Shown here: positions 15,735-61,312 of the stretch, piece by piece
Layout of the letters: every line of letters starts with the position of its first letter
How positions within the stretch are numbered: position 1 is the stretch's first letter
Assembly: GCA_032622095.1 (NCBI GenBank)
Contig: CP136065.1
Coordinates: 205,632,151-205,696,150, forward strand
Reading direction: 5' to 3'
Source: Siphonodentalium dalli
Lineage: Eukaryota; Mollusca; Scaphopoda; Gadilida; Siphonodentaliidae
Length of the DNA: 64,000 nt
Notes under the pieces: model-generated
Database searches by the model: none
Seen by the model: the letters and a program-made list of their open reading frames with translations, nothing else
What the model was told of the DNA's origin: nothing
Made by a program: the position numbers and the translations under genes

Positions 15735-16121
15735 CTATTTTGCCACGAATGTATAGAATCCCCAATATACCATGTTAAATATGATAAACAAAAGCGGGAA
15801 AATCAGCCGGGCATATTTGTCTATAGTATTAACATCATGAATTTTAGGCATTTTAACTTTAATAGATTTCGCCTTCTGCTTAACGTTCGTTAGAAATTTC
15901 TTCCGCTTTGGGTTACTCCCAGTTTTTCGTCTTATAAGGTTATTACACACATAACCCCGCGTGCTGGGATAGGTACTCCGAGGCAAATGTGGCGACATGC
16001 GCAGTGAAGGTGGCATCTCTGATTGTTCCTCCATGTCATAATGAAATGTCTGTTGGTTTCTTAAGCCAAGAATAGGTGACATGCGAACACTCTGCATCTC
16101 TATAGATTCACCATCATCCAT
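15735..16121 (-). CDS. GABA-A receptor beta/LCCH3-like subunit, last exon with M4 and stop
   Basis: The terminal exon encodes the rest of the cytoplasmic M3-M4 loop, M4 and a TAG stop at 15735-15737. It starts in phase 0 after tttcag (16122-16127). About 128 residues: an acidic, Met- and Ser-rich stretch with the repeated motif R-M-S-P, then a Lys/Arg-rich region (KRKKFLTNVKQKAKSIKVK), the conserved pre-M4 block MPKIHDVNTIDKYARL, then M4 (LIFPLLFIIFNMVYWGFY) near residues 104-123 and a short extracellular tail. VNTID and the M4 start match beta-type GABA-A subunits. The whole M3-M4 loop is about 130 residues across the two exons. No clear AATAAA-type signal was found within a few hundred bases downstream on this strand, so the UTR end is not placed. 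Confidence 0.94.
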   Translation of the reverse strand: MDDGESIEMQSVRMSPILGLRNQQTFHYDMEEQSEMPPSLRMSPHLPRSTYPSTRGYVCNNLIRRKTGSNPKRKKFLTNVKQKAKSIKVKMPKIHDVNTIDKYARLIFPLLFIIFNMVYWGFYTFVAK

Positions 16122-16185
16122 CTGAAATTATAACAGGAACCACGTGATCTAATGTCGTTATCGTGACATGAAGTGTATATCTTAA

Positions 16186-16376
16186 CCATTTCATGACGCG
16201 GGAGCCGAGCTGGTGTAGCATTAAAGATCCTGTGCCAGTGCATTCTCTTATATATCGTATATAAGAGAATGCACTGGCTTACAAGGTCAAGGTAAATTGT
16301 TAGGCCAATGTAGTATCTTATATATGCGAGGCTCCCTAAGGGAGACTCGCTTATATATGATAATGCATTGGCACAA
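16186..16376. mobile_element. Truncated TTAA MITE, CATGGCGG family
   Basis: TTAA at 16182-16185 then CCATTTCATGACGCGGGAGC, GATCCTGTGCCAGTGCATTC and two hairpins. The right terminal block is missing. Lies just 5' (plus strand) of the last exon's acceptor. Confidence 0.65.
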
Positions 16377-16536
16377 TGAACTGTTCAGAGGCTAGGTCAA
16401 CTCTCTAAAATATGTTTTTATCAGATTATCCACAGGTTTTATGTCCTGCGAATCAACGAGAAATATTAGTGATGTTTCGCAACTCGCGGAAAAAGTTACG
16501 ACTAAGTTTAACTAATCGTAGTCTTAAAATTATGTA

Positions 16537-16870
16537 GGGTAGTCGGTAGCCGAGAGGAGAGGTAGCGTACTGGTCTCTCGTGCTAGCGGACCGGGGGATC
16601 AGAATTCGGTCAGATACCATGTTTGTCAGGCTGAAAAGTCTCATTCGAGATCACAAAATAAAGATTCGTATGCAAAATGCCGACTTGTCCAGGTATGTTG
16701 TCGTGGTGCAGTACGCTGTCCGATCAGGCGCTGACATTAATGGCTGATCCGTGTAACCGCCTCGGTTTGTGCACGTTAAAGAACACTACTGGAGTCACCA
16801 CAGGGTTATCAAGTTACCCGGCCGTGGTTGCACCTGGACCAGTCAAAAACCGTCAGGCTCATGCATATGG
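16537..16870 (+). mobile_element. tRNA-derived SINE
   Basis: The head resembles a tRNA gene, with an A box-like GGTAGCCGAGAGG near 16545 and a weaker B box-like ATCAGAATTCGG near 16600. The body contains GTGCACGTTAAAGAACAC, a segment seen in marine invertebrate SINEs. The head is not a functional tRNA: no cloverleaf could be completed. Confidence 0.6.
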
Positions 16871-17689
16871 ACATATCTACAGGTACATATACAGCCAAAA
16901 CAATTCGTTTCGCAAAAATAAGGACGACGATTAGGGAACACGGTAATGAATGGCTAATCGTGCGCAGTGTGATTTTCGCTTTGCACGATCTAACAGATTA
17001 AGCACAACGCTCACAATTATCTGTTATTCAATCGGCCAATTGAGGATTGTTGTCCGAGGCTTGATAAGTGATGGATGTATGATACCACAAATTAATTGAC
17101 TGAGTGTATATCTTTAAATGAAGTGTTTGGTACGAATCGGAGAAATTGATAGCCTGTTTGTTGTCACCAGTTAGGAAATCTCGGCTAAGAGCGCATAATT
17201 TGACGAGAACGTGCGCACAGTTTGATGACGTAGTACCCTAAATGTATAGTCGCAACTCTATCCGTGAGTTTTGCGAAACATCTCTATTATGAGACTTTAA
17301 CGGGAATACATGCCAGTGCAGGCTGAAATCGCCGAATCCGAATATCGCCATATTCATTCTCAGCAAAACAAGATCGTCAAATTATGATGTCATTTGTGGC
17401 CATCCATAATCCATTGTGCATATTTCTTTGAATTTTGCGTCGATCCATCAAAATCATTATTCTGCTCAATAAATTTCCAAATTCGCCTTCCCATGACACT
17501 GTTTCATAGCTTGAAACAATGTATTACGCACATGCAGAAGAGTTCAAAACAAGTATTTCTCGATAAAAATAATTCAATCACACACCGTACATGTACTACT
17601 ATATACCGATTTTTTCTCTTTGATAACTTCATCGTGGATGATAATCCTGAATGGGCAATGTACTGATTCTTCAAAGTTCACATTGATGT

Positions 17690-18376
17690 ACCATGAAAGT
17701 TACATACTACATATCATCACTGCTGTTTGAGTTATATGGGCGTGGAAATCGCGTGTTTACCATGAAAGTTATACACTTCATATCATTACCCGAAGTTTGG
17801 GTTGTATGGCCATGGAGATACCGTGTTTACCATGAAAGTTACACATTCAATATCATCACTGCTGTTTGAATTATATGGGCGTGGAAATCACGTGTTTACC
17901 ATGAAAGTTACACACTTCTTATCATTATCCGATGTTTTTTATTATATGGACATGGAGACACCGTGTTTACCATGAAAGTTACACACTTCTTATCATTATC
18001 CGATGTTTTTTATTATATGGACACGAAGACACCTAATTGTTTACAATGAAAGTTACACACTAATACCATTACCTGATGTTTTTTATTATATGGACATGGA
18101 GACACCGTGTTTACCATGAAAGTTACACACTTATTATCATTATCCGATATTTGGTTTATATGGACACGAAGACACCTAATTGTTTACAATGAAAGTTACA
18201 CACTAATACCATTCATTACCTGATGTTTGAGTTATATGGGCGCAGGAAATCGCGTGTTTGCAAGGGAAGTTACACACTTAATGTCACCACCTGATGTTAC
18301 ATGGGCGTGGACATCGCGTGTGTAACAGGAAAGTTACACACTTATTGCCATTACCTGATGTTTGAGTTGTATGGGC
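17690..18376. repeat. 70-bp minisatellite abutting the M2-M3 exon
   Basis: About ten diverged copies of a roughly 70-bp unit (63-74 bp) run on the plus strand, each starting ACCATGAAAGTTACACAC or a variant and continuing CATTACCTGATGTTTGAG and ATATGGGCGTGG. The last unit enters the exon at 18355-18376. On the minus strand each unit contains a version of CATCAG/GTAATG, the donor of that exon, intact near 18210 and altered in several others. The array fills a third of the 2.2-kb intron between the last two exons. Confidence 0.9.
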
Positions 18377-18620
18377 CTTTCTTCTTCCTGGTGATTATTC
18401 TGTTTCATATGAGCCTGTCTTTCTCGTAAGCGCTTGGCTTTCCGTTTTGCTCTAGCATTCCAGTATGTATAGTTCACCGCGGCATATTCAAGCAACGCAG
18501 CAAATACGAATACGAAACACATCACTAAGTATATGTCTATAGCTTTAACGTATGAGATCCTTGGCAACGACGCTCGCACACCGTTGCTGATCGTTGTCAT
18601 GGTGAGCACGGTTGTGATAC
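18355..18620 (-). CDS. GABA-A receptor beta/LCCH3-like subunit, M2-M3 exon
   Basis: The exon completes the Gly of M2 and reads [20 protein letters not shown], then [20 protein letters not shown], then [13 protein letters not shown], followed by a very basic start of the M3-M4 loop ([14 protein letters not shown]) and a Gln-rich stretch. M2 lines the pore (6' Thr, 9' Leu) and M3 follows. VKAIDIYL and EYAAVNY are typical of beta-type subunits. The acceptor is ttccag (18621-18626). The donor chosen is CAG/GTAATG at 18354, which gives a phase 0 end that fits the phase 0 start of the last exon. The 3' boundary is the least certain: the last 20 or so exon bases and the donor match the unit of the minisatellite at 17690-18376, so related donor-like sites recur downstream. 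The 5' part is certain. Confidence 0.9.
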
Positions 18621-18820
18621 CTGGAAAATACATATATGAATAAATTGTCTATGAAACACTCGCAGTGATTAGATTGCCTGTCATCCTCTACCGTTCTACG
18701 ACCATTCACATACGCTAGTTATGTTCAGCCACATGTATACGTGTAACTTGTAACTTGGCAACTTAAATCACCCGACTGACTTGACCAGTTCGTCTACACA
18801 TACACGGTCAAACCGTTTAA

Positions 18821-19299
18821 AGGTACTCAATCCGTAAAGAGGGTCCCCATCTCAACAGATTCCAACAACAACAATCCGATCAGAGGGTCCTATATTACTA
18901 TTTCTTTGGCTTTGGGGGTAAACAATATTTGATTCGAGTCGAGGAACCCATCAAACAAAGCTCAGAGTTATTAGATATTGATTTTTGAAATTTGTTAATT
19001 GCTCGAGATGAGTACTAATAACTGCCGTCAATTTGGTAACCTGCTCGAGATTTTACGCCAAAACTCTATTCAAACAGACAAGGATGGATAACACTATAAT
19101 CAAGTGGTAATAATATCGAAATTTTGACTGTCTTCTGGGCCAGAAAGAATTCCCGATAATGAAAAATAATAGATTTATAAAATCGATATCTAACAAATCT
19201 GAGCTTTGATGGGTGACTTCCTCGACTCGAATCAAATATTTTTAACCCCCGAAGCCATTGAAATAGTAATTGAGAGGAGTTTTATCTGATTGAGTACCT
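18821..19299. mobile_element. TTAA foldback MITE with AGGTACTCAATC ends
   Basis: TTAA at 18817-18820 and 19300-19303. Long imperfect arms share AGGTACTCAATC, TATTTGATTCGAGTCGAGGA and TTAGATAT. The AGG start next to TTAA resembles the elements at 59607 and 60052. Confidence 0.82.
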
Positions 19300-19349
19300 T
19301 TAAAAGTTTTGTGTCCAAAACTTGTAGCAACGAGTATGTTTTATTTCAA

Positions 19350-19800
19350 AACGAAGTCCGTGAAACATTCACAGCAATATACTTGGTTGACAATGAGCCA
19401 CGGAACGTACCATTTTAAAGACAACATCACATAATACCGCTACTCGTGATTAATATTTACACTTGGTGTTGTATCGAGTTTATCTACAAACTATATTTGG
19501 TCTACGATTGTTAACAAACTTGAGTTTAGTGTGCCCGTCATTTGCAGAATGAGGTCCCCAGCGGGTGAAGTTAGTGACGCTATCCCGCATAGCGGGCTAG
19601 CATCACCTAATTCACCCTCTGGGAGCTCAATCTGCATGGCCTCATCTGCTATGGGAGACCTTTAGGCTCAGATTAAAGTTCCCAAATGGTGAATAGTGTG
19701 ATGTACATCCATTGGGAACCTCGATTATGCAAAGTGTCGAAAAGTATAGTCTGATATTTCTTGACTGGCTAAGTTATAACTTTTACAATCTATAAATCTC
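19350..19800. repeat. Diverged repeat interrupted by a hairpin insert
   Basis: Copy of the segment at 14880-15115, interrupted from about 19510 to 19735 by a block with a strong inverted repeat (CCAGCGGGTGAAGTTAG against CTAATTCACCCTCTGG, about 19556-19632), likely a later MITE insertion. Confidence 0.55.
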
Positions 19801-19889
19801 TCTATTGAGATGCATAGACATTTACAATTTCCCCCTAAAATTTGGGTTTATAGAGTATCACAACTTGATCCACAGGCGGTGTATATACG

Positions 19890-20790
19890 TATTATACGGG
19901 AGACATATATATTCAAAAGATTCAAAAGAAAGCGAAGACAGAAATTTCCATTGGTTTCCATGACAGCCACCAAGATACATTGAATTTACTTCTATGAAAC
20001 TGACAGGGCTCAATTGAACCTCCGACAAGCTAACAATCTTCATCCAAAAACTATATCACCGTTCATCTATTCATATTTCAGTGAGAACATCCGGTATACG
20101 TGTATATGACCATATATTGGGGTGGTATATATGGCTATATAATATAATAATGAAATACTATACCTATCTATATCGTTTGTTTACTATATAAGTATCCATT
20201 TTAGTTTCATTAATTGTCAAACATGATGCTATATATGGTACATGTATATGTGTGGAATATTATAATCCCACAACCTTGATCGTGTAATTAGTAGTGCTTT
20301 AGCAATATTTACAGAGGTTGTAATTGAGTATATTTGTAGGTCTTCAAAATTGTCACGGTAGCGCGATATGCACACTTCAGCAAATATCCCAGTTAAAATG
20401 CAAACGCTATCGGCAGAATCGCTAACGAAGTTTAAAATATCGTCGACCCAGAACAGATCATACACAGTGGCAGTGATTGGTTTTACGGGCGCTTAATCAG
20501 ATATGGTATGGCGGATTTAACCCTTCGAAATCGATTTGAAAGATGACACATCATCCATAATTGCGATTCCCTGTTTGTTCCAGATAGTGCAGCAACTTTA
20601 ATTTGTGCATACATTTTGGTAAATTGCGCCAGAAGAAACACATTTTCCATAGGTGTAGGGAGAAAAAGATACTCAATATTCAGAAGAAATCGAAGACAGG
20701 AATTCCATTTGTTTCCATGGCAGCCACATTGAATTTACTTCTATCGAATGGACATGGCTCATTTGAAACTCCAAATTATGCCATGGGCGA
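19890..20790. repeat. Direct repeat pair
   Basis: Segments 19910-20040 and 20665-20785 share GAAGACAG, TTTCCATGGCAGCCAC-like and TTGAATTTACTTCTAT blocks in order. Between them is unique AT-rich DNA. Origin unknown. Confidence 0.55.
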
Positions 20791-20915
20791 ATAAGATAGG
20801 TTGGTAAATATATACGAAATGTCGATCTAACTCCCGGTTAAACAAGAGCATACCATTCACTCCCGGTTTTGTGATTCAACCTATGGTGTTTTGTGATTTC
20901 ATTTAGTTTCTGTAA

Positions 20916-21300
20916 ATGTGACCCGCCATATCAAATCCAGTTGTAAGTCGAGATTGTTTTACCCTGTGCCAATGCGTTCTCTTATATATGCGAGTCGACC
21001 ATAGGTCGCCTCGCATATATAAGAGAATGCATTGGCCTAACAATTTGTTATCATTTTTTTAAAATAAATGTTTCTTACAGTTTTTAGGACATAAAATAAA
21101 AAACATCCATTACCCTGCAGGGAGCCCCACACATATATGTTTGTCTGGGGCTCTGTATGGGTGAAATTATAAAATTGTTAAAGAATACAAGAAAAAATTG
21201 TAAAAAATTGTTAGGCCAATGCATTCATATATAAGAGAATGCATTGGCACAGGGTAAAAAAAATCCCGACTTACGACTGGATTTGATATGGCGGGTTACA
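20916..21300. mobile_element. GTGACCCGCC-family MITE (copy 2, shortened)
   Basis: Same ends as the copy at 13214. The first hairpin is complete (20967-21035) and the second is collapsed to AATGCATTCATATATAAG. About 75 bp shorter than the full element. Confidence 0.82.
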
Positions 21301-21960
21301 AATATGTTATTTCTGTTAAAAAAATATCACCGAATTTCGACTTTTCAGTCATCACCCTTTGAAATTCATCAGTACACATAGTTCATGGAAATTATACAAT
21401 CCAATGCAATAGCAGGCCTCAAGTATTTCGATTTTCCAGCTGTAAGGAATTAATATGTCACAGGGGATGGAACAATTTATCACGTGATTGCTACCCATAT
21501 ATAGGTCTGGGATATAAGCGATGCAATTTGCCTTTCTATAAGCTATTAATTAAGAACGGTCGTGGAATCAGTGTCACGTCAGTCGACGTACATCCCTGGA
21601 TTCTCTGTCCAATTCCCCGCGACACGCCGACGAACGTACTTTCTGTGGACAACAGAGGGCGCTATCTATACGACAGGATCAGTAAATAAATGAAAGTTTG
21701 TGACGACTGGACCCTCTCCGCAGGCTTAGAGAATTACGATTTCAATGAATATCCATTGCGCAGGGTCTGTCATCATCGCTCTTGATGGTATAGACCCCGT
21801 CACGTGACGATAAAGACCTTATCGCATATGTGAATTCCAAGTCGGTCACCATATATACACGCTATTATTACGCCACATGATGGTGTAAGTTGTTTCGGAG
21901 ATTTTGATTTCCTGTGGTCGACTGGGCGAATGTATTGTGAGAGATTTTTTTTGTACCTTA

Positions 21961-22130
21961 CTCAACCGTACCGATATAATCACGTAGATGCTGAAATTGT
22001 AAAGTTAACACCACCGGTGTATAATATGTTTTTGAAAATATGACTCAATCGTATCGATGGAGTCATGACAGGCTGAAATTGTAAACTTAAAGTCACCGGT
22101 GTAATAATATGTTGTGAAAATATAAATAAT
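21961..22130. repeat. Tandem duplication, about 90 bp
   Basis: Two copies share CTCAACCGTA/CTCAATCGTA, GCTGAAATTGTAAA and CACCGGTGTA.ATAATATG. Confidence 0.7.
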
Positions 22131-22599
22131 CTGATAGCCTGAAAATAATGTATAACCCATTGGGAGCCCCTGGTTTTTAATAAGAGTGCGCATGCCTGTT
22201 CTGTTGGAGTAATCGCGATCTTTTATTTTCTGGTCATCAAGTCAAAATTGTATCGTATACACACTGTGTTTGTACCGATGCATGTATCGTGACTCGATGC
22301 GTTTTCGTGGTCATATAGGCCCTACATAAGATATGATCACGAAAACGAGCAGTCGCGAAATATGATAGAATCGTACACTCACTTTCAATAGTATAGATTC
22401 TCTTAATCTGCCGCGGATTTCCCAAAAATTGTACTTTCATTTTCAATAGGATTCTCCGAATTTTCACTTTTACTTTTCATTTTTACCTCGCAAAGCGACC
22501 TTAGTTGACACATATATATATGACACACTGGCTGAGTCCATGACAAATAGTTGATATATAGCATTGCTTCTTTCATTTAATTAAAGCTCACCTCCCTAT

Positions 22600-23325
22600 T
22601 TGCGGAGATCACTTTGCGGAAGTCCCCGAATTCGCGGATGCCTCTAAAATGGGTGATGTAGATTTTAATGGGGGAACGGGTGCGTATATGTCAATTGATA
22701 CGTATCTTGAACAAATAACGACACGACCATCACAATAGAGGTCTAGCTGTTCTATCAATTATATATGCGCCGAGTTCACTTGGTACAAATCAAACGGCGA
22801 TAAATATTCTCGTGTGTCAGAAGGACTCCTTAAAGTTGTGAATAAGATGAAGAATATTTATTAGATGTTATTTATTTATTAAGTCAATCAAATAATGTTA
22901 TTCATTAGTTATATATATATATACACTCCCGGAGATTGCTGCGCGGGTATCCTGATCACGCAAATTAAATCGCGGAGATCCCCTAAAATGGGCAAATTAT
23001 GTTGATTTTAATGAGGGAACGGCTGCGAATATGTCAATTGATACGTATTTTAAACAAATAACGACACGATCATCATAATAGAGGTCTGTTCTATCAATTA
23101 TATATGCGCCGAGTTCACTTGGTGCAAATCAAACGGCGGATAATTAAACATTCTCATGTGCCAGAAGGACTCCTTAAAGTTGTGAATAAGATGAAGAATA
23201 TTTATTAGATGTTATTTAACAAGTCAAATAATATAATTTGATTGACTTGGTAAATAACATCTAATAAATATTTTTCATCTTATTCACAACTTTAAGGGAG
23301 TCTTTCTGGCACACGAGAATATTAT
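22600..23325. repeat. Tandem duplication followed by inverted copy
   Basis: Segments 22600-22890 and 22925-23220 are direct copies sharing TATGTCAATTGATACGTAT, ATGCGCCGAGTTCACTTGGT and GAAGGACTCCTTAAAGTTG. The end of the unit recurs inverted at 23240-23320, giving a long potential hairpin around 23230. Confidence 0.75.
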
Positions 23326-26300: not shown

Positions 26301-26419
26301 TGCATTTTCTCGTGTGCACTTCCGACTTATTTTCGTCGAATGGTATATTTTTTTAACAAACCATCACAATGCAGACATTTCCGTCCCACTTTTACCCCAG
26401 GTAGATTGCTAAGATTTAT

Positions 26420-26726: not shown

Positions 26727-26814
26727 CAGTTCGTATGACATTTTCGAAAATAGCGATCGAACACATTTCGGTTCCAACAAAAATATATGATAAAATATAA
26801 ATAATTTACCTCGT

Positions 26815-26850
26815 CGTGATATTGCTTTGTTGCTAAAACGACGTTAAACC

Positions 26851-26891
<41 letters not shown>
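26815..26891 (+). mobile_element. SINE tail with (AATC)n
   Basis: ATATTGCTTTGTTGCTAAAA followed by CGACGTTAAACCCC and about seven AATC units is the 3' end of a related SINE on the plus strand. Confidence 0.65.
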
Positions 26892-26893
<2 letters not shown>

Positions 26894-27328: not shown

Positions 27329-27960
27329 TTAAGAGGGAACCTGTTCACATATTATGAACATTTGGTCATGTTCAAATGTCAGATTCTCAGGCAACGACAT
27401 GTGGACGTTTCCTATGTGAATTCATGGCACCAAAGGGAGCGAGCAGTGTACACAATAGTGGATAGTGGCACAAAACAATACGAAATTCCTCATTTGTCTA
27501 CCAGTTCTGGCTATGCAGTAGTGAGTCTGGAGTATTTGGGGGGGGGGATTTATATTACCACCAGCATAATTACGTCAGTCTCACCAAATCACAACATCAT
27601 CAGGAAAGCGATGTATCCTATCAGGCGATTTTTGGAATGCCTTTACAGTGGTATATTCGTCACATTGCTAAAATAGCGCTTAAACAGTATCTGCCATACT
27701 GTTACACTGCATGCGTTCCTTGCAGAAATTATTTTTAGCCACAGAGAGCTAACTCTTGATGGTGGTATTAGATATCCCCCAAATACTCCAGACTAACTAC
27801 TGACTGCATAGCTGTGGAGTCCTTGTTTTTACCAGAACTGCTATTCTATAAGAGGAATTGACAGCCTCGTGGCAGTATTGAATCCATGCAGGGCCATGCA
27901 GATATATACTTATTATTATGAGGGTACTGTGCCTCCAAGTCTCGTCGTGACATGGGTTTA

Positions 27961-28129
27961 CAGTAATGTCCTAACTAATAGACTCCTTACCACAGCAAAA
28001 TTATGGGTAACTTTTCAGGATTTAGTCGGAAATATGGTTTGTTGCAATAAGCCATATTTCCGACTAAATCCTGAAAAGTTACCCATAATTCTGATGTGGT
28101 TAAGGAGTCGATTATTTAGGGCATTACTG
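27961..28129. mobile_element. Mariner-like foldback MITE (copy 2)
   Basis: TA-flanked, CAGTAATG start, arms identical in type to 14037-14248 but with a shorter loop. Confidence 0.78.
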
Positions 28130-30479
28130 TACACGCAGAACTAAGCTGTTCTTCGCATGAAATTTAAATGAGTTTTCTACTCTTCATAACAGTTTGTGAC
28201 ACAAACCGAGCTCAGTCAAGCATGCAATCACTCACCGCATCGCCATTATTCCACTTCATAAGATATAATATATACTGAATATACATGCAAAAGATCCAGA
28301 CAATCCGCTTCCCTTACGTGGAACACGTCGGGAATATAACTATATAGAGGATCTACAACTCGTCCCCAGTTTATAGCGTAATTTACAAAACGAGTCCAGC
28401 AAATTAGGTCTGGACCGAGCCTTTGGCGAGTGACAGACATAATTTACTGGATGAGTAAATTTATCACATGATCCAAAACCTCGATAAAAACATACTTAAA
28501 TCAACAAATGGGCCCTGAAACTAACATAGTGAAACTAACATCGGCTTCTATAAGGCATGCGATGATTTTTCAGGTAACTATGCGTTGTTTACCCGCGTAA
28601 AGAAATAGTCCCAGATAAATAGAGACACTTTGACCTAATTAATGGCGTATATTTAATGAAATTAATTACATTTTCAAGCTTTTCATTCATTACAATGTTT
28701 GGAAAACTACTGGAAGCCATAGTATTTTTGAAACGCAGCGTACATAATAGAAACAGATGACAAACCAGAAGTCAAAGGCCACCTGGCACTATTTCCTGTT
28801 ATGCAACGAATGTTTCACATCACATTTTATTGAATGAATGTATTGAATGGAATAGGGGAAGGATCATGTAATATATATTCGCCATAGCTGGACTGCTTTT
28901 AACCGCATATAACGCTATGTACCTCACCGAGCGAGCATCTACACTTCAAGTTGGAGTTCAAATGACCGAAAGCATGATTCACGACTACCTCCCACGCTGG
29001 CCAATATATGATTGCCGATGTTGAAAAAAAAAGAACTAAATTTATGGCCACATCATGCAGTAGGTAGAGGAAGTTCAACGTCACTCGTTTGGATAACTAT
29101 ATGGGAGCACTCCGTGGGCAAAGTAGCATATCTGCAACCACAATTTGATTTCACTTAGTGCATCGGGAGCGTTCGCCGATTCCAGACACATATTCTTCAT
29201 TGTCGCCAAATCCCCGGATTTAGAGAGGATAAGCGTCGTTGCCGTGCATGAAAGCCGAACTGATGACCCAGTAAGAATACCGATACGTATACTAAACTAT
29301 TCCCGCAAACCAATACCCCCACAAGCATATATGTTCCACAGTCTGAGGCACACTCGAAAAATTCTCCCAAACCACTCAGACTCCCAGGGCTCGCATTCCC
29401 CAGCGTGGTCCAGGCAGTATACACCGGGCGAGACTGATTACCTAGTGTATATATATGGTCGCTGCTCGGGGCGAGACGAATGGTCATTTTTCGCGTTAAG
29501 AGAAAAGCGATAAGCTTATGCGTTCATGGCGATTTTATAATATTAATATTTATAACATAGTTTTATAATACCGGGGATAATCCGTGTCGCTACCACAGCC
29601 ATCGATGACCACATAAAACATCGACGACCACACATAACGTCGACGACCACATATAGAAATAAATAATAAAGCACACGCATGTACATAACGGGAGCTGCAC
29701 TGGTGCGGCATTACAGACCCTGTGCCGGTGCACAGGAACAGGAACATGCCAAGAACATCGTGACGCCAGTTTTTCAGGCTATTAGTTTCACTCAGTCCTT
29801 GTTTCGTTGGAAGTGATAGTGTCAACACGCGAACATGGCCGACATGGTAACCCCAATATACTCTTGGTCTCTTCTCAGTTTTCGAATCAGATTTGCAATG
29901 CACATGTACATGTAGGACTTGGTAACTCGACGTCCACGAACGTTCCAACGCGGCTTCTATTTTACATGCCCTTATAGTATCGTCTGCTCGCGTGTGAAGC
30001 GGAGCGCGCGGTTAACCAAACGAGAAAGAAACACAAGAGAATGACGCGACTCAAATTAAAGTTTAAATGATCCATCGAATCCCTTGACGGCGTCTTCTCA
30101 CGTTCGTCTAAACTCGAGCTCGGGTGACCTAGTTCAGGCGAAATTACAAAGGACAAGCTCGTTCGCAAATCAAATTATATTCACTAAAAATCAAAATCAA
30201 TCATGTCAAAGTAATTCCAACAATGAAGACTGTTCGCCAAGCCTCCAATGAGGTCGACTATATATACATGTATATCCTTAATAGAGATGGGATCGAGTCT
30301 TCAAACCCGGCGGAAAATACGTTTAGAGTACCAAACTATTATCTTCCATAAATTTTGATAGAAACGTGGAGCCCAAATGTCCACATCATCAGAGCCGGAA
30401 CCTACGTCATAATTGGCACGAACATGATAGCAAGATGTCTCAAATCGAAGCGAATATATATTTATCGTGTTCTTCACAT

Positions 30480-30940: not shown

Positions 30941-31576
30941 ATATATAAGTAACACAACCAATAAGGATAGCAAATGAGCTATGTTTCAATTTTTACTATA
31001 TGAGTTGTGTCCACATATATAAATATGACTATTGATAAGATGCACCTATGAGTGTTAAAGTGACTTCGGTTATAATTTTTCGAGATATGAAATTTGAACG
31101 CCAAAATCACCTTAAAAAGAAATCTATTAGATGTCCGGTTTTACATGCAGTATCTCAGGCGAGTTATTGGGATAACTCATATCTTTGGAAAATATAGAGA
31201 AAAAAAACGAATGATGAAATTGCCAGGTGTGATATCTTGCCGCAATTATTATGCAAATTATGACGTAGGTTCCAGGAGCTAATCATACAGAATTAGCAAC
31301 AGGTGACAGGTGATGCTCTGATGTGATGTCCCGTCATATTAATGTCCACATATACGCGCAGCTCCTGGTGCGTCTTAATCCATGTCGATAGACGTGGAAG
31401 TTTCCATGCATGCGCAAAAATAAATTGAATTGACCATAACATGATAAAATATGAGTTAAATTAAGTTCGATGGATTGATGTGCAAAGCAAGCGTATTGCG
31501 AAATGTGTTGTCGTTATCATGCTAACATGACCACTTGCGTCATAGCTACATTATATATAGTGAGTTTCCTATACTA

Positions 31577-31779
31577 CAGTAATGGTCTAAGTAATCGACT
31601 TCTTAACCACAGCAGAATTATGGGTAACTTTTCAGGATTTAGTCGGAAATATGGCTTGTTGCCATTCATCTCCGGGAGAGCTTTCCGATGAATGGCAACA
31701 AGCCATATTTCCGACTAAATCCTGAAAAGTTACCCATAATTCTGCTGTGGTAAGAAGTCGATTACTTAGAGCATTACTG
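31577..31779. mobile_element. Mariner-like foldback MITE (copy 3)
   Basis: TA-flanked. Arms CAGTAATGGTCTAAGTAATC and so on meet at TCTCCGGGAGAG. Lies only 25 bp downstream of the last decayed M1-exon copy. Confidence 0.8.
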
Positions 31780-31805
31780 TATGTTTTGCGCAAGCACAAA
31801 CTCAC

Positions 31806-31894
31806 CTTTAGCAACACTCGACGACGTGGCTTCGTGGTTGATCCAGAATGAAACCCTTGATAACATCATAATCAAGTTGGAATGAAGATAATTC
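31806..31894 (-). pseudogene. Second decayed copy of the 3' half of the M1 exon
   Basis: The third unit of the 120-bp tandem array is more diverged than the one before it: the Trp of LSWVSF has become Arg, and the end reads S-S-S-V-A-K-G instead of S-A-R-V-A-L-G. The GTGAG donor is still present at 31805. Spacing from the previous donor is 121 bp. The growing divergence with distance from the real exon indicates two duplication steps followed by decay, with no sign of protein-level selection in this copy. Confidence 0.82.
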
Positions 31895-31926: not shown

Positions 31927-32015
31927 CTAAAGCAACACGCGCCGACGTGGCTTCGTGGTTGATCCAGAATGAAACCCATGATAACATCACAATCAAGTTG
32001 GAAGGAAGATAATTC
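31927..32015 (-). pseudogene. First decayed copy of the 3' half of the M1 exon
   Basis: Immediately downstream of the M1 exon donor, about 120 bp of exon 3' half plus intron start is repeated. The copy encodes [20 protein letters not shown] and keeps the VALG end and a GTGAGT donor at 31926. It lacks the first part of M1 and has an Ile to Asn change before LIV. Upstream of the homologous block is TTTATAG, which could look like a weak acceptor. It cannot replace the real exon because the loop C and early M1 codons are absent. Confidence 0.85.
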
Positions 32016-32046: not shown

Positions 32047-32199
32047 CTAAAGCAACACGCGCCGACGTGGCTTCGTGGTTGATCCAGAATGATACCCATG
32101 ATAACATCACAATCAAGATGGAAGGAAGATATGTCTGGAATATGAAGTATCCAATGTTTCGCTGAAGTCGGAAGCTCAACGACAGGCGCTGGTACTCCC
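32047..32199 (-). CDS. GABA-A receptor beta/LCCH3-like subunit, M1 to start of M2 exon
   Basis: The exon encodes the end of loop C ([10 protein letters not shown]), the pre-M1 RNIGYF segment, M1 (about [20 protein letters not shown]), the M1-M2 linker and the first residues of M2. The linker reads [14 protein letters not shown]. Position -2' is Ser, -1' Ala, 0' Arg and 2' Ala; 2' is the site of dieldrin resistance in insect RDL. From memory, TSARVALG is the form in insect LCCH3, whereas RDL has PAR. The acceptor is tttcag (32200-32205). The donor GTGAGT starts at 32046. The length is 153 bp, as in vertebrates. Two tandem decayed copies of the 3' half plus donor follow at 31927-32015 and 31806-31894. 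The Tyr of G-E-Y matches a GABA-contacting Tyr of vertebrate beta subunits. Confidence 0.95.
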
Positions 32200-39028: not shown

Positions 39029-39166
39029 CTGTAAGTACAGCCTCTGTTCTCTGTAAAGTTTCGTAAGCCACTATTGAAAACTGCGGAAGTTCAACTTTGT
39101 CGACCCCTTCAACGGCGTGTTTGTTGTGCCGCCAATACATCACAAGGTCTTGTTTGGTATAACCAT
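39029..39166 (-). CDS. GABA-A receptor beta/LCCH3-like subunit, loop F to loop C exon
   Basis: This is the second exon in the window and follows the Cys-loop exon after a 22-kb intron. It completes the loop B Tyr and reads GYTKQDLVMYWRHNKHAVEG, then VDKVELPQFSIVAYETLQ, then RTEAVLTG. GYT and ELPQFSI are beta-subunit hallmarks, and the closing L-T-G begins loop C of the agonist site. The acceptor is tttcag (39167-39172). The donor begins GTGCGT at 39028. The length is 138 bp, the same as the vertebrate counterpart, and it ends with the first base of a Gly codon. It is the one donor-bearing exon of this gene without an obvious duplicated copy beside it. Extracellular domain; confidence is high because length, phase and motifs all agree. 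Confidence 0.94.
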
Positions 39167-46504: not shown

Positions 46505-46582
46505 TTAACGATGTATACGACAACATCAGCAGAAGACGAGTTGCGGGTAAAATTAAAATTAAAAAGAGTTCAAACTATCGTT

Positions 46583-51069: not shown

Positions 51070-51506
51070 ATTAGACCCGCCATATCAAATCCAGTCGTAA
51101 GTCGGGATTTTTTTTTACCCTGTGCCAATGCATACTCTTATATATGCGAGTCGACCATAGGTCGCCTCGCATATATAAGAGAATACATTGGCCTAACAAT
51201 TTTTTACAATTTTAATAATTTGTTCTTGTATTCTTTAACAATTTTATAATTTCACCCATACAGAACCCCAGGCAAACATGAGCAGACGACACTCTTCTAT
51301 ATGCTTCTATATATGTGTGGTGCTCCCTGCAGGGTAATGGATGTTTTTAATTTTATGTCCTAAAAATTGTAAGAAACATTTATTTAAAAAAAATTATAAA
51401 AAATAATGCGAGGCGACCTATGGTCGACTCGCATATATAAGAGAATGCATTGGCAGAGGGTAAAAAAATCCCGACTTACGACTGGATTTGATATGGCGGG
51501 TCACAT
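51070..51506. mobile_element. GTGACCCGCC-family MITE (copy 5)
   Basis: Same inverted ends, body in the opposite orientation to other copies. Full hairpin 51125-51193; the second hairpin has lost its left arm. Confidence 0.83.
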
Positions 51507-53062: not shown

Positions 53063-53192
53063 TGACTTGAAGATCGATTGGGGTAATTTGTTTTGACCGG
53101 CAGCGTAATTAAACAAAGTTCGCGATTCACACACTTTGTTTAATTACTCTGCCTGTTAAAATACAATCACCAACTCGATCTACAAGTCATTT
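53063..53192. repeat. Short foldback
   Basis: GACTTGAAGATCGA and TTAATTAC-type blocks recur in inverted order around AAAGTTCGCGATTCACACAC. Possible small MITE. Confidence 0.6.
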
Positions 53193-55250
53193 ATTATATG
53201 GCCTTTGTAGCCTGGGGTTTCCAAGTCGGATTTACGTAACATTGTGACGGTGTAATTTAGCCCTAGTATATATATAACTAATACAAGTTAATACTGACAA
53301 CTAGCAGCTAACATATTCATCCAAATCACCGGTATTTACGACATCCCGTTTACCCTCTCAACTTTGCTATTTTCGATCCGTCCCTGTAACTATTACTCTG
53401 TCACTTCAGCCCAATGCTAAACGCTCTAGTATCGCTATGTCAAATAGCACAGATAAGCTCGTCGCTGATTGGATGACAAACAGCCGCGCGTAAATTATCA
53501 AAAGGTCAAATATTTCGCGGGGTTTCCAGATTGTTTTACCTGTCTTGTCAGAAAGTTATTGTCTTCAAGTTTGAGTTTATTTTGTCGTAAAGATGTCGCC
53601 AAGTTTTGATTATGGTTGAACGCAGATTATGCTGACATAGTGGCCTATGTCCCATTGAACTGGTATGTTCACAGTTTCTATATTTTATCGTTATAATCAT
53701 GTTTTTATTAATACTTTTGTCTTCAAGTAGTTCAGCATAGAGTTTGTCCATTTTGACATAAAGTATATACAGCCCGATAGTTAGGAGTATATTTCTTATT
53801 TTAATTATATTTTAATATGTTTACTTTTGTGAGGTTATCTCCCGATAACCTGAGATGCCAGTTTGTAGATATCTCAATTAGATAGATTGGATATCTGGCA
53901 TCTCTTGTATTTTCAGGAACTCCTCAAGTTCCTTTAACATATATTTGTGTATGCACATATGCGTGCTTATCATGTATGCAAATGGTAATATATTTGCATT
54001 TGGTTGCAGGGCCTATTCTATGCCTATACTGGTGTATTATAACACTCTGTGTGTTAGGTGTTTACTGATGTATTATCATACTATGCCAGTCTGTGGATGA
54101 TGTTCGATTGTATGTGCTGATGGTGATGATGATGATAATAGAGATATGTTATTCTTGTCTAAAGATAAATAAATGCTATATGAAGACTTACAAAGGTAAT
54201 ATGAACTTTCTATAGACCCTGCCCACCAAGACTGAGAATTCATTGACAGAGCCCATACTGCCAAAGCTAACTTTATAAATTTAATGTCAAAGGCTCGAGG
54301 ACATTAATACTTAAATGGACCCATAGTAACCCTCTGACAACATTATAATATATTTTTGATGTCTAATATGATTTGCGACAGCTTCTCCACTCCAAATATA
54401 TGGAAAACACCTTTGCGGCATGAAAATCAGCAGTACCGTTTATCACATTCTCATAATATGTTACTGCAAAACCAAGGCTGAATCATGCGATTTAAAGTCG
54501 AGATGACAAGCGGACCACTATGTCCAGTTTAAGTTACGATTGTTAAATTTATTTCGGAACTGGACACGCTTGGTTAATTAACAAACAGTTAAGGCATTGT
54601 TCACATGGTAGCGTTTTTGTCCAGGACCCCCCACCTATAAAGGAGATTAGATGAGGTTCTATTGTAATGAATGAGCCTTGCTCCAAGACCGTCTAGTCTC
54701 CATATCTTCATTTCACCATTTCCACCATGCTTGTCAACGTAGATTGTATATATATACACACACCGAGTTATGTTTCTGTAATGTGGAATATTAATACTGC
54801 TTAACACAACAAGTTTATAATAAAATGGATATTGTGTTTATGTGCGACTTGTTGTGAATATATGCAGCCGACAATTCGAATCCTTTTACAGACATTTAAG
54901 AAATGGCGGGTTTTGTTTACAGCTATATATAGGACAATCACTGCGTGGTTAAATATTTAAATCGGACCACCCAGATTGATCGCACGAAACTGAGGTAAAC
55001 GAAACATATCCATTCACCCCATGATTTGGTTGGACATCTAAACATTGCCTATACACAGGATACCGAATCTTATCAAAATGTTAAGGCGACCATGACTGTT
55101 TATGACAGATGATGTTGTTCCTAAGTGGACAATCGTATTACATGTCGGAACGTCGGACTTGTCTTGTTTAGACGACAACACTGATATTTTTATCGAGAAA
55201 GAAGCGAACGTTGCACACAAGTTGTGATAGTAGAATAGTTTTATTGGCAG

Positions 55251-55340
55251 GAGAAATTGAGCCATACTCTGAACATAAGTTTGGACCCATTCGGGCAAAC
55301 CTATTACACAAATACGTGGATGTGTACTTTGCTGGACATG
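55251..55340 (+). pseudogene. Exon-like block, possible metallophosphoesterase fragment (copy 1)
   Basis: Between a TTATTGGCAG acceptor and a GTCAGT donor lies a 90-bp open block reading EIEPYSEHKFGPIRANLLHK then YVDVYFAGH. LLHKY-VDVYFAGH resembles the C-terminal GH[DE]H metal-binding region of purple acid phosphatase-like metallophosphoesterases, and the donor would split an Asp-type codon after G. The rest of such a gene is not visible and the block lies inside an intron of the receptor gene on the other strand. It could also be chance. Confidence 0.3.
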
Positions 55341-55528
55341 GTCAGTGCACGAGTATCTTGTACATGGCCGTGCACGAGTACTATGAACATCAATTATATT
55401 TCGTCTAACGCGGGAAGCTGGAGCTGGGCAGAGACTCCTATGATAATCATTAACACTGATATTTTTTATCGAGAAAGAAACAGACATTGCACACATGTTG
55501 TGATAGTATAGAATAGTTTTATTGGCAG

Positions 55529-55618
55529 GAGAAATTGAGGCATACTCTGAACATAAGTTTGGACCCATTCGGGCAAACCTATTACACAAATACGTGGATG
55601 TGTACTTTGCTGGACATG
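55529..55618 (+). pseudogene. Exon-like block, possible metallophosphoesterase fragment (copy 2)
   Basis: Same 90-bp block with the same acceptor and donor dinucleotides and one visible residue change (Pro to Ala after EIE). Preserved frame in both copies is mild support for a coding origin, but they are too similar for this to be a strong test. Confidence 0.28.
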
Positions 55619-56185
55619 GTCAGTGCACGAGTATATTGTACATGGCCGTGCACGAGTACTATGAACATCAATATTATTTCGTCTAACGCGAGAATTTAGA
55701 GCTGGGCAGAGACTCCCATGATAATCATTAAGAAGCCACATATTAGTGGCTCAATTACGCCTTAGGGAGGACAAAAATCACGCAACACGACCAGCGAAGA
55801 CGTGAAGTATCCATCGTAAAATGTTGGCGAGCGAACGTGCAGTCAATTTTATGTTTTTGTGTGAACTACTTCCTCTCATAATTACGAAACCACCGACAAC
55901 ACTTTGGCACGGCTAAAAATGCTGCATGGTTTCGATCCACAGTCCTGCAGATGGCTGGGGTTTTATGCCATTTTATGCCGATGACGACGCATTTATTGAA
56001 AGGAGAAAGATCACACAAGCTAGTTGGATCATTGTTCACAGTGTATATTGACCATTAACCGTGAACACATGCTACATGTAGCTTTACATGGAACAGCAGT
56101 TACATATCCGATGTATAGCACGCGGCCGATGGCGCTGCGTGCTCGTGTAATCAATCCCGTGTTATATCTGCTTCATGAAAACGGA

Positions 56186-56282
56186 CGAGAGAGAGAGGGG
56201 GGAGAGGAAAGAGATGGGATGGGAGGAGAGAAAGAGAGAGAGAGAGAGAGAGGGGAGGGGAGAGGGGAGAGATGAGAGAGAG
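56186..56282. repeat. GA-rich simple sequence
   Basis: Purine-only tract of GAGA, GGGGAG and AAAGAGAG units. Reading frames across it are spurious. Confidence 0.9.
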
Positions 56283-57587
56283 AAAGTTCTTACAACCACT
56301 CAACGAAACACAGGTAACTCTAGACAAGATTCGAGCGCCCGTTTTTTCACGGAGGAAGGTCAATCGATTGCGGCGGAAAACGAATTGTCTGGCCAGTGGT
56401 CTCTATACACTAAACTCAGATTTCGTAAATAGGATGGCCACTTAGCCAGATGCCATGTCTGTGATGTTAATGTTGGCTCTTAACTGATGTTTCAACTGAA
56501 AATCAAGAATCTGTCGAAGTCAAGAATCTGGCGAAGGCTTGGTCGGAATACCAAATAATGTCATAATGTAGTGCACATGCAGAACGGGTATACATTGTTC
56601 GTATACAGCCCAATGTTCACTGAAACATTATCATCATCATAATATTCATGGATAACGACTGCCCACCGTCCTATGTAAATAAAAATCAAGACAGAAACAT
56701 TATATAGATGCAACAGCGAGTCTACTGATTTGCTGACGTCAGCCTTGTCTATGGACACTATTCTGGTGTGTATTGCGGTTTGTCTATAATGTCTTCCTAT
56801 ATATTATGGAAAGCCTCAAGGGCACACCAGCTACGTGACTATATTGTCAATTTTGTCTCAAGAGTATATTATATCCTGTTTCCTCAATTTGTCGCGTTGG
56901 AGAATCCAAATGCCATCTTGGCGGCTGCTGCTTATAGCTCATCGTGTTCTGTCACAGGGAATGTTCATATTCATTTTAATGCCAATCACTTTTCAAGTTG
57001 ATAAAATCCACATTAGTGTTACTACATCAGTGTGGCCGTTGGGAATAATCACAGATAAGGCATATCTCTCCAAGTTGTCATAACCACGATGACTCACACA
57101 GCAAAGGCCACTGGGAATACGGATGGATTTGTGATTCTCATACAGAACTGTTAATAATAATTCCGTCGGGTTTTAGAATCAGACGTCTATAATATGGACA
57201 GTTGCCAAGTCGTCATTAAATTACAGAAAACATACGCGATATCACGAAACAAGGATGATGATCACCGAATCCGTGATCGCCAATATATATAGGAATCACT
57301 GCATGAACTAAATGGTTTTCCATAGACGACCGCGTTAACGTTTCAGCCAAATTCACTGAAATGAAGCCTGCGGGCCATTCCAGTGATGTTTACCCAGTTA
57401 GATTGACATCAGGTGATCATGAAATTTCAACCATAGGTCATGTGTTTACATTTAAAAAATAAATTCCCAAGTGTACGACAGGGATATCCCGCAGCAAACT
57501 TGTACCTGGAAAACTCCAGAATTACAGCAGCTAGTTAAATAAATTTCCCCACTCACAAAAATCCATTCCGCCACTAATTCACCAGTT

Positions 57588-57753
57588 TAAATTATTTACA
57601 TATGATGTACAAATCAAATAAATAAGATTTTATCCTTTAGTAACGTGTCAATGTATGTCGATGGATCTAAATTATTTACATATGATGCGAGTGTACAAAT
57701 CAAATAAATAAGATTTTATCCTTTAGTAACGTGTCAATGTATGTCGATGGATG
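57588..57753. repeat. Tandem duplication, about 83 bp x 2
   Basis: Units share AAATTATTTACATATGATG and TTTTATCCTTTAGTAACGTG; the second has an extra CGAGTG. Confidence 0.9.
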
Positions 57754-57858
57754 AAACTTGTGTGAAAGAGAACAAGACATTCTATTGTTGTAGCCAAGTG
57801 CTATACCCAATCAAACACAGTTAATCAAGGGCAACCAACCGCGGTCATCGGGATTTTG

Positions 57859-57889
57859 ATTGATAGATAGATAGATAGATAGATAGATA
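57859..57889. repeat. (GATA)n microsatellite
   Basis: About seven GATA units. A poly-G run follows at 58020. Confidence 0.95.
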
Positions 57890-58950
57890 TGTTTAATCTT
57901 CCAACCAAGATATACATGGTACGAAGAAAAGAAAAAACAAACAAAACTGAATGACAATAAACAATACCTATCCTTAGCCACGCGCGGTGAAGTGGAGTCT
58001 CGATTCTTATTGTTGCTTTGGGGGGGGGGGGGGTAGTGGAGTAGACCAAATTATTGGCGATGGCTAAATTTGACAATTTGATTAGTCTTTTTCCGCTTAT
58101 ATAGGGACCCACTTGTCGGAGCATGGCATAGGATTTAACAAACTAGTATATGGAACTGTATGATATGATGAGCTGGCAGATAGATTGACTGCAGTCGTTC
58201 AATTGTAAAGCAGTCTGTGCTATTTAGACACGGGCAATTATAGTATGCATGCATAGATGCTAATTTAAAATTAACATGTTATCCGATCTCGGGGCTGCAA
58301 TAATTTGCATGTGTGAATGAGCAGATATATGACATACCTGGGGGTACACCATTGTAAATAAGTGTATATATCACCATAACCACAAATATATCATCTTCAA
58401 CACCATTATCATAATCTTCATCATTATCACCATGTAACTAAATTATTTATATATTAACTTACTATTTTACATATTGATTTATGGCTAAGCCATAATAAAA
58501 CATTGAAACATATCAGATGAAGGCCAATCTTCGGTTATACCTTCAACTACATCATTCCACGGTGCACCCGACCCTGGTACACATTTAGCTCAATGATTAC
58601 TGGTGTTCGGATGATATCATAGCACTTCCTGTTATGTTGCAACGCTTACGGCATACAGCGCCTTGAGCTGGTTAATATTACCAAGACACATTTCTCAGAC
58701 TTCAAAAGCATCACCAAAAATTAACAGCTTGTCACAATTTTATCCAACAATATCCCCAATATATGCCATTCAATTTGCCATATGAACCGCGGATTATTCT
58801 CGGCACGCGATGAGTATCGTATAGTTAATAATAATCAATGAATACTTGTAGACGAGTCGACCCTTTGCACACGCAGCTCCTCTGAAGTAATACGTTACCT
58901 TATATTAATATCATATATATTAATGTTTACTACACAATGTAGATTTATAT

Positions 58951-59256
58951 GTTAAAGTGATGTGAAACACTCTGATAGGGTGATCAAATAGAAATTAAGA
59001 ATAATCTTGCTCAAAGTAGTTATTTGTTACGAATATTAATCCAAATTGACGATAAACACCGTCATTCTCATATAGTAATTAAATGCAATGACTCTCGATG
59101 GCGAAATCATTTGTATCAGATTATCGCCCATAGTTGCGTCCCGAATCGAGATGTAAATATTTACAATTGGGCGTAGTTCAGACGATGTTTTCTATGGAGT
59201 GGTATGGTCGATTTCTTTGAAATTTTCGGCGATGCTAGTAAAATGCGACATTCCAT
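58951..59256. repeat. Left arm of a 3.2-kb inverted pair around the Cys-loop exon
   Basis: Imperfect complement of 61888-62167, sharing TTAAAGTGATGTGAAACAC, ATCGAG-TGTAAATATTTAC, GACGATGTTTTCTATGGAGT and CGGCGATG. Confidence 0.7.
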
Positions 59257-59606
59257 AGGTTGGCATAGCTCCTGAGTGCTAACTTATCAATTTCACGCAC
59301 AAGTCCATAATATGTCTTTAATCTGTATGAATAATGTACGGTATTGTCCAATATTTCTCTCAAAGCTGATATTGACAATTTGTGCAATGTGCGACACTAC
59401 AAAAATATGAGTGCTTTTATTCTGTTAAATGTTTATATTTGGGACATTTTCCCCATCCAAACCAATTTCCTGTTAGTTGTCTTAAACTAGAATTGTCTGC
59501 CACCAACGTAAAACATTTGCGTGTTGCTGCAAATCTGTGTTACAACAATGAGAACAATGACTGCGCTTCTTCGCAAATAATGATTGGATCAAACATTACT
59601 CTTTAA

Positions 59607-60047
59607 AGGCCCACTTAATTTTCGAATCACCTTATCACATTATATACAACATAGTCCATATTATATACCATTTGAAAGAGGTAGCTCCAACGCATTGTAT
59701 CATCAACTTATCCGGTCGAATAAAATGTGAACATGTTTTTGTCAAGGTATCGACGTGTGTTCTGTGTTTAATTCGAGGTGGTCTGTACTGCCAGTTTATT
59801 ATTTTAGATGCATCGAAGGGGAATAACTCTATCTCTTATTTGTGATCTATGATGCATTCTGGAATAAATAACGGGGGAAATCTTGGGGTGAATCTGAGAA
59901 TCTCTATCACTTGGTTGGTACTCCTAGGTCACAGCTGTTCCGTATTGTGGTGGAATATATATATTTTTGGTTCCTCTTCCAGATGGTATATAACATGGAA
60001 TATGTTGTATATAATGTGATCTGGGCATTCGAAAATTAAGTGGGTCT
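59607..60047. mobile_element. TTAA foldback MITE A (first of three joined)
   Basis: TTAA at 59603-59606 and 60048-60051. Arms of about 85 bp start AGGCCCACTTAATTTTCGAA and continue CACATTATATACAACATA. Shares its right TTAA with the next element. Confidence 0.88.
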
Positions 60048-60051
60048 TTAA

Positions 60052-60396
60052 AGGGGTACTCTACACTAAATCCGACCATGTATGGGACCATCTTCTTTTA
60101 TATTCAGCATAATATATGCAAGAAATGAATGAATTTGAGCCATGGATTAGTGCAAAATACAGTTGTGTGCTCAGTGAACGATGCAAACAACCTGATATTT
60201 TAATGAAAATGCATTTATGACTCCAGTCATAAAATCGTTTTCATTATAATTACCATGTTGTTTGTATCGTTCACTCGGTAAGGGAGTGTATTTTGCACTC
60301 ATCCATGGCTCAAATTCATTCATCTGTTACATATATTCTGTTATGTATAAAAGGAGATGGTGCCATAAATGGCCGGATTCAGTGTCGAGTGCCACT
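60052..60396. mobile_element. TTAA foldback MITE B (second of three joined)
   Basis: TTAA at 60048-60051 and 60397-60400. Arms of about 160 bp start AGGGGTACTCTACACT and contain TGAATGAATTTGAGCCATGG. A 28-bp remnant of its right end recurs at 61133-61160 beside the intact Cys-loop exon. Confidence 0.88.
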
Positions 60397-60400
60397 TTAA

Positions 60401-60792
60401 CCCTTTACCCAACAAAACGGCCAAAACCGGCCAAATAAAGCTTCAACAGCCTAAAATATCTTCGGTCTGTCTCAATAGAACCATACAAATATGGATATCA
60501 TTGGAACCGGCTCCTTGACCACATTGTGATAGTTACAGTTATGCCCTGTGCCAATGCATTCTCTTATATATGCGAGTCGACCATAGGTCGCCTCGCATAT
60601 ATAAGAGAATGCATTGGCCTAAAAAAAATCTTTTTTTAACACTTTTTACCATTTTTTCTTACATTCTTTAACACTTTTATAATTTTTAATGTGTTAAGCC
60701 AATGCATTCTCTTATATATGCGAGGCGACCTATGGTCGACTCGCATATATAAGAGAATGCATTGGCACAGGGCCATTCTGTTGGGTAAAGGG
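60401..60792. mobile_element. TTAA MITE, CCCTTTACCC family (copy 5, third of three joined)
   Basis: TTAA at 60397-60400 and 60793-60796. Hairpins at 60550-60618 and 60698-60766. The paralogous site at 61157-61164 reads CCTTTAAGAG with a single TTAA and no element, which directly shows the insertion and TTAA duplication. Confidence 0.93.
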
Positions 60793-60814
60793 TTAAGAGT
60801 AATATTCCTACTAT

Positions 60815-60897
60815 TACTTTCTATTTCCACCATGCAGTTCTGAACATCCAGTGGGTAATTATGTAGGTCCATCATACACGCTAGCGTAGTGGTGAAC
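60815..60897 (-). pseudogene. Damaged tandem copy of the Cys-loop exon
   Basis: This is a second copy of the exon at 61230-61312, about 415 bp downstream in the direction of transcription. It keeps the acceptor (tttcag) and differs from the intact exon by one base in the body, changing the Thr of N-C-T to Met and so losing the glycosylation sequon. At the 3' side about 47 bp present beside the intact copy are missing. This removes the GTAAGT donor, leaving AGT followed by AATAGTAGG. The nearest GT would shorten the exon and break the phase. It is therefore very probably a non-functional pseudo-exon of recent origin. An assembly duplication of two haplotypes is the main alternative. Confidence 0.85.
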
Positions 60898-60909
60898 CTG
60901 AAATAAACA

Positions 60910-61129
60910 GATAACCAGGTACCTATTTCGCGTCTAGGTACGACGAAGCGAGCACAGTACAAGTGACCTTGCCCAAGGGTCACAACCTGGTGCGAGATTT
61001 AGCACACACCGCTCAATTCGGCCAAGCCACTGTTGTGGACACAATAGTCCACCGAGCGAGGCGCGAACTCACGCCGGTGCATTAACACCATTACAAGTCC
61101 GACACTCTACCCACTGGGCTACCACATCC
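60910..61129 (-). mobile_element. tRNA-derived SINE between the two Cys-loop exon copies
   Basis: On the minus strand the head is GGATGTGGTAGCCCAGTGGG with an A box TAGCCCAGTGG and a B box-like GAGTTCGCGCC. The body includes TTGGGCAAGGTCACTT, and the 3' end AATAGGTACCTGG is shared with many marine SINEs. It separates the intact exon from its damaged copy. Confidence 0.78.
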
Positions 61130-61229
61130 ATAAATGGCCGGATTCAGTGTAGAGTGCCCCTTTAAGAGTAATATTCCTACTGTTCCATTATTTCAGTGAT
61201 ATGGCTTTAAAGCTTTATAGTCAACTTAC

Positions 61230-61312
61230 AACTTTCTATTTCCACCGTGCAGTTCTGAACATCCAGTGGGTAATTATGTAGGTCCATCATACACGCTAGC
61301 GTAGTGGTGAAC
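61230..61312 (-). CDS. GABA-A receptor beta/LCCH3-like subunit, Cys-loop exon
   Basis: This exon encodes the disulphide loop of a Cys-loop receptor in the extracellular ligand-binding domain. The reading is [20 protein letters not shown] followed by CTVEIES; the two Cys are 13 residues apart and the second sits in an N-C-T glycosylation sequon. The acceptor is tttcag (61313-61318). The donor is GTAAGT, starting at 61229. The 83-bp length equals the matching vertebrate GABA-A exon. It begins with the third base of a codon and ends with the first base of a Tyr codon completed by the exon at 39166. E-S-Y at this junction is loop B of the GABA site on beta subunits. It is the most upstream exon found here; the earlier exons lie beyond 64000. 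A damaged second copy is at 60815-60897. The family call is firm, and the beta/LCCH3 assignment rests on the downstream exons. Confidence 0.93.

Follow-up and report, generated by a model that had tools for sequence, protein, structure and literature searches.

We analysed a 64-kb stretch of animal DNA (the window, 64,000 nucleotides, with positions counted from its first letter), in which a tblastn search with a GABA-A beta3-like query located five minus-strand exons of a GABA-A beta-like receptor subunit. Translation of the gene model gave an open frame throughout the joined exons to a terminal TAG, with donors on four of the exons. Three of the exons were searched against PDB, and among the best 60 of 261 matches the nearest sequences were beta-3 and beta-1 (E about 2e-59); all four exon open reading frames (ORFs) that we scanned matched Pfam PF02931 or PF02932. 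The gene carries a Cys-loop ligand domain and an M1-M4 channel region and is closest to beta subunits. Its remaining N-terminal or upstream exons fall beyond the window edge, and the part within the window looks intact, with splicing as predicted from the sequence. Tandem arrays extend across the donor ends of two of these exons, and a third exon is accompanied by a copy of nearly its whole length.

Duplications beside three exons of the receptor gene

At the M1 exon, a 121-bp unit is present in three copies, comprising 85 of the 153 exon bases (the 3' end, 32047-32131), the donor and about 35 intron bases. The spacing is 120-121 bp, so that extra donors follow positions 31927 and 31806. Over a 91-bp core, the first and second units are 98% identical, the first and third 90%, and the second and third 92%. 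AG/GTGAGT is kept in all three units, with the GT in register in both extra ones. In the PSILI motif, both extra copies have Asn in place of Ile, and copy 3 additionally has His in place of Pro. A palindromic element breaks into the intron tail of copy 3, and beyond it the original tail appears, by alignment, to resume. Every site that varies among the three units does so in a single odd unit; we considered a recombinant origin for copy 2 and do not claim one. We also rejected the idea that the extra copies are in-frame additions, as a period of 121 bp shifts the frame and read-through meets a stop immediately.

The array at the M2-M3 exon is longer, and the exon shares with it only its last 22 bases and the donor, which lie within the first unit (numbering the units d1 to d10 outward, with d1 the exon's own). 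Pairwise identity among the units ranges from 52 to 96%. We read the donor states of the nine extra units from the alignment, the scoring pattern having covered eight of them (all but d4). GT is in register in four (d2, d3, d5 and d9) and replaced by AT in three (d4, d6 and d7), and d8 and d10 have each lost a base, so that their nearest GT stands one position upstream in a less favourable context. The three AT units are mutually 91-96% identical, and d8 and d10 match at 83%. With only two types of loss, each found in similar units, the five donor losses may represent as few as two events followed by array turnover. The decay of the array donors is thus real, yet weak evidence about selection. 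The converse proposal, that selection keeps the array donors, is not supported, given that five of the nine extra ones are lost. Separately, a higher-order period of about 144 bp, or two units, runs over part of the array (17754-18213).

The Cys-loop exon differs in kind. Its copy is offset from the original by 415 bp, and the roughly 330 bp that separate the two exon copies mark it as a duplicated exon rather than a tandem repeat of the donor side. The similarity continues downstream, where 60363-60400 matches 61128-61165 and, by eye, AGTAGGAATATTACTCTTAA is shared as well. This arrangement suggests duplication of a segment of about 200 bp, after which some 50 bp including the donor were deleted from one copy and a TTAA-flanked insertion entered it. 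The Cys-loop copy was also the only one of ten longer ORFs to match Pfam at an E of 0.01. For the loop exon, we sought BLAST-defined local duplications within 50 bp of the donor and found none.

These results bear on a prediction made earlier from the same DNA, that three of the gene's four donor-bearing exons carry tandem copies of their donor side. The count of four donors agrees with ours. So do the two extra copies of the M1 3' part and donor at about 120-bp spacing, and the roughly ten 70-bp units at the M2-M3 donor, with the qualification that only 22 exon bases are shared. The duplicated units of the three exons are likewise unrelated, sharing no sequence. At the Cys-loop exon there is indeed a copy that has lost its donor, but it includes nearly the whole exon with its acceptor and forms no tandem donor-side array. 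The claim of donor-side duplication therefore stands for M1 and M2-M3, and we reject that of three donor-side tandem arrays.

Features of the receptor gene and its duplications (window positions; a slash marks the exon-intron boundary, and a dot a feature given no strand)
Feature	Position	Strand	Details
Cys-loop exon, 83 bp	61230-61312	-	acceptor TTTATTTCAG, donor GTT/GTAAGT
Loop exon, 138 bp	39029-39166	-	donor CAG/GTGCGT; no local duplication found
M1 exon, 153 bp	32047-32199	-	donor TAG/GTGAGT
M2-M3 exon, 266 bp	18355-18620	-	donor CAG/GTAATG
Last exon, M4 and stop codon TAG	15735-16121	-	acceptor without local duplication
M1 copy 2, 85 nt of exon 3' part	31927-32011	-	then donor TAG/GTGAGT
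M1 copy 3, 85 nt of exon 3' part	31806-31890	-	then donor AAG/GTGAGT; intron tail broken by palindromic element
Array of ten ~70-bp units, exon's own included	17689-18376	-	spacing 64-74 bp
Cys-loop copy, 98-bp match, 98%	60816-60913	-	82/83 exon bases (60816-60897) and acceptor TTTATTTCAG; donor deleted
Spacer between duplicated segments, ~215 bp	60914-61127	-	tRNA-SINE-like (short interspersed nuclear element) by eye; single copy in window
Insertion in flank of Cys-loop copy	60401-60792	.	inverted ends CCCTTTACCC / CCCTTTACCCAAC, TTAA both sides; piggyBac-like by eye
Palindromic element, MITE-like (miniature inverted-repeat transposable element)	31575-31781	.	in intron tail of M1 copy 3

Likeness to lancelet mirages

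Tandem repeats across exon-intron boundaries are already known from several lancelet genes; what is new here is the case of a GABA-A-type receptor. The published examples, named mirages, are described as minisatellite-like tandem duplications of exon-intron boundaries in the lancelet genes for Adh3, the globins BflGb6 and BflGb9, and TnC, with units of 10-160 bp that in many but not all cases hold AG/GT (PMC3087553). According to the same account, both 5' and 3' boundaries can be affected, the inner units of a cluster are homogenised while boundary units are excluded, and lengths vary between haplotypes or cells. A further lancelet gene, PGBD5, is reported to have two sets of imperfect tandem repeats (2 x 60 bp and 3 x 108 bp) that overlap two exons and directly adjoin a 5' splice site in each case; another lancelet assembly has 7 and 6 copies, re-sequencing supports the repeats, and the authors point to Adh and TnC as like cases (PMC3902484). 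A paper on lancelet huntingtin deals with tandem repeat elements and assembly errors in passages that mention no repeats at exon boundaries.

The arrays at M1 and M2-M3 have three defining features of mirages. Their tandem copies span the exon-intron boundary with donors inside the arrays, their units of 121 bp and about 70 bp fall within the published range, and many but not all units keep the GT (both extra units at M1 and four of nine at M2-M3). As in lancelet PGBD5, more than one boundary of a single gene is affected. Mean unit identities tend in the direction reported for mirage clusters, the units of low identity being mostly outer ones: the lowest mean identities in the M2-M3 array belong to d2 (0.600), d10 (0.708) and d1 (0.710), against 0.748-0.798 for the other seven, and the third unit is the divergent one at M1, although d2 is the second unit of its array and not the first. 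Unlike the lancelet clusters, the receptor gene has no acceptor-side tandem array, none of its five acceptors lying in an array found by Tandem Repeats Finder (TRF), and the Cys-loop copy, with nearly a whole exon and its acceptor but no donor, is not a tandem boundary array. We conclude from their anatomy that the M1 and M2-M3 arrays are mirage-like and very probably of one kind with the lancelet mirages, and we treat the Cys-loop copy apart from them, as a duplication of an exon.

Two other systems resemble the arrays in part. In the AGGT model, introns are gained by tandem duplication (PMC4974935), and here too copies across or beside an exon boundary create extra splice signals; unlike that process, no new intron is evident, as the gene model needs none and the copies are predicted to lie inside an old intron. 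Dual-specific AGGT splice sites are reported to be enriched in genes with tandem repeats (PMC10809524). The AG/GT within our tandem units recalls those of UBC, but there, as that report describes, they separate the coding ubiquitin units from one another and spliced isoforms are on record, whereas here their predicted use truncates the protein.

If the host is a lancelet, the mirage genes would gain a neurotransmitter receptor that has arrays at two boundaries and a copy of one exon; if it is another animal, mirages would extend beyond the lancelet genes found in the open-licence literature. Boundary arrays may supply raw material for new introns and new exon ends, which makes them good sites at which to watch intron gain in progress.

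Placement, origin and consequences of the copies

We favour the explanation that the copies are ordinary, tolerated local duplications straddling exon ends, of the lancelet mirage kind, and put its probability at roughly three in four. A tandem duplication running from an exon into the following intron would keep the original acceptor, the full exon and the first donor, so that the message would be unchanged if the first donor is used. The arrays would subsequently expand and turn over, while the additional donor signals decayed. This account supposes that the first donor is in use, that growth proceeds by unequal exchange or slippage, and that the copies are under no selection. Three points weigh against it. 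The two additional donors at M1 are intact, and the more distant of them outscores the real donor; the tie to lancelet mirages is by anatomy only; and in donor-only tests (inside a duplication or within 10 bp of one, shift P 0.003-0.046) donors fall in duplications somewhat more often than pure coincidence would predict.

The last of these points comes from a comparison of exon boundaries with local duplications. We defined the duplications by BLAST under six settings (distance limits of 300, 500 or 1500 bp, each with two score limits), covering 6-9% of the window, and used circular shifts of the donors across the window as the null. Two of four donors lay strictly inside duplications (P 0.026-0.046). 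Three of four lay within 10 bp of one (P 0.003-0.008) or within 50 bp (P 0.008-0.021) at the limits of 500 or 1500 bp, falling to two of four at 300 bp (P 0.03 and 0.05-0.06, respectively). Duplications touched three of five exons (P 0.03-0.06), or two at 300 bp (P 0.12-0.13), and contained one of five acceptors, that of the Cys-loop exon, or none at 300 bp. TRF arrays with units of at least 50 bp, eight after merging rows by hand (3.9% of the window), contained two of four donors (shift P 0.012; random array placement P 0.010). For all nine boundaries together P was 0.096, and six of the eight arrays held no donor. As the sequence tested is the one that gave rise to the hypothesis, and the choice of window came with the finding, these P values are suggestive only; donors exceed the chance expectation by a modest amount, and the comparison is post hoc.

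Chance may account for where the copies lie, in a duplication-rich window in which three exons happen to be touched. Local duplications occupy 4-9% of the window depending on the method, the tests on touched exons and on all nine boundaries gave P values between 0.03 and 0.13, and the hypothesis followed the data; only the donor-only tests speak against coincidence. We regard this as a serious possibility that falls somewhat short of even odds. It concerns the location of the copies and is compatible with tolerated duplication of the mirage kind. The original prediction held that repeated duplication at exon ends in one gene would be unusual: local duplication does touch three exons of this gene, but the lancelet mirages offer precedent and the excess is modest.

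At M2-M3, the direction of events could be the reverse of the one we propose, with a prior intronic minisatellite supplying the donor and the exon growing 22 bases longer by taking in part of the first unit. The array includes only those 22 exon bases, which are located in the M3-M4 loop, and seven of the nine extra units read ATATAA, an in-frame stop, against ATACAA in the exon. A single base change fits both directions, however, and d9 also has ATACAA. The reversal is inapplicable to M1, where the copied part is conserved coding sequence, and it is compatible with our explanation of that array. We consider it possible but rather unlikely.

An assembly artefact, in which allelic or repeat copies were misjoined, is improbable. 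One mirage cluster was apparently misassembled in the lancelet draft, and the two lancelet assemblies differ in PGBD5 copy number. Against this, the M1 copies differ by 2-10% and the M2-M3 units by 4-48%, other elements lie inside or between the copies, and the similar PGBD5 repeats were confirmed by new sequence data (PMC3902484).

Read-through past the M1 donor gives Gly-Glu-stop, and at the M2-M3 donor it gives Val-Met-Ala-Ile-Ser-Val-stop; splicing from a later donor at either exon would thus truncate the receptor. Splicing the Cys-loop exon to the acceptor of its copy would give, by eye, a frame with a stop after five codons. Among the sites considered, the first donor of each exon alone is predicted to yield a receptor. 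Scored with a donor matrix, the M1 donors reach 10.89, 10.89 and 12.35, the highest being the farthest copy, and the M2-M3 donor 7.47, a value equalled by two of its copies. Donor strength thus fails to single out the first donor, and position or exon definition would have to do so. The early stops past the M1 and M2-M3 donors, together with the loss of five of nine array donors, lead us to regard the copies as neutral, with the additional splice signals most likely persisting as passive remnants.

Copy donors that act, as dual-specific AG/GT sites or as poison extensions tuning receptor level through nonsense-mediated decay, would be consistent with the AG/GTGAGT of all three M1 units, with the reported enrichment of AGGT sites in tandem-repeat genes (PMC10809524) and with the early stops met on reading into the copies. 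The donor losses at M2-M3 and the absence of shared sequence among the units of the three exons argue otherwise, and published mirages reportedly leave splicing undisturbed: Adh3 data and the authors' reverse transcription PCR suggest regular splicing, although they allow that mirage copies could serve as cryptic sites and seed new introns (PMC3087553). We think such a role very doubtful. The earlier suggestion of splicing effects from retained donor-like sites describes a possibility: at M1 the copies score at least as high as the real donor, but the decayed array and the mirage precedent speak against it. It is just as doubtful that exon ends, donors above all, are favoured duplication sites in this genome (for example where transcription or splicing causes breaks) and that the retained donors at M1 make up a series of dual-specific sites giving regulated unproductive messages.

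Elements next to the copies

Scans of the window with ARAGORN and with Rfam at its gathering threshold gave no matches, the spacer at the Cys-loop duplication included; within the window, that spacer matched only itself. Two element patterns searched against prokaryote and viral contig collections had no matches. Within the insertion that flanks the Cys-loop copy is a palindrome with CCAATGCATTCTCTTATATATGCGAG, and inspection by eye shows similar stretches near 16230-16375. A palindromic element, also recognised by eye, occupies 60050-60400, and its end recurs near 61128-61165, next to the Cys-loop exon. At 55177-55731, at a distance from the exons located, a 278-bp unit is tandemly duplicated with 93% matches. 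The palindromic element in the tail of M1 copy 3 belongs to a MITE-like family that occurs three times in the window; its relatives at 14035-14253 and 27959-28131 are 77-88% identical to it.

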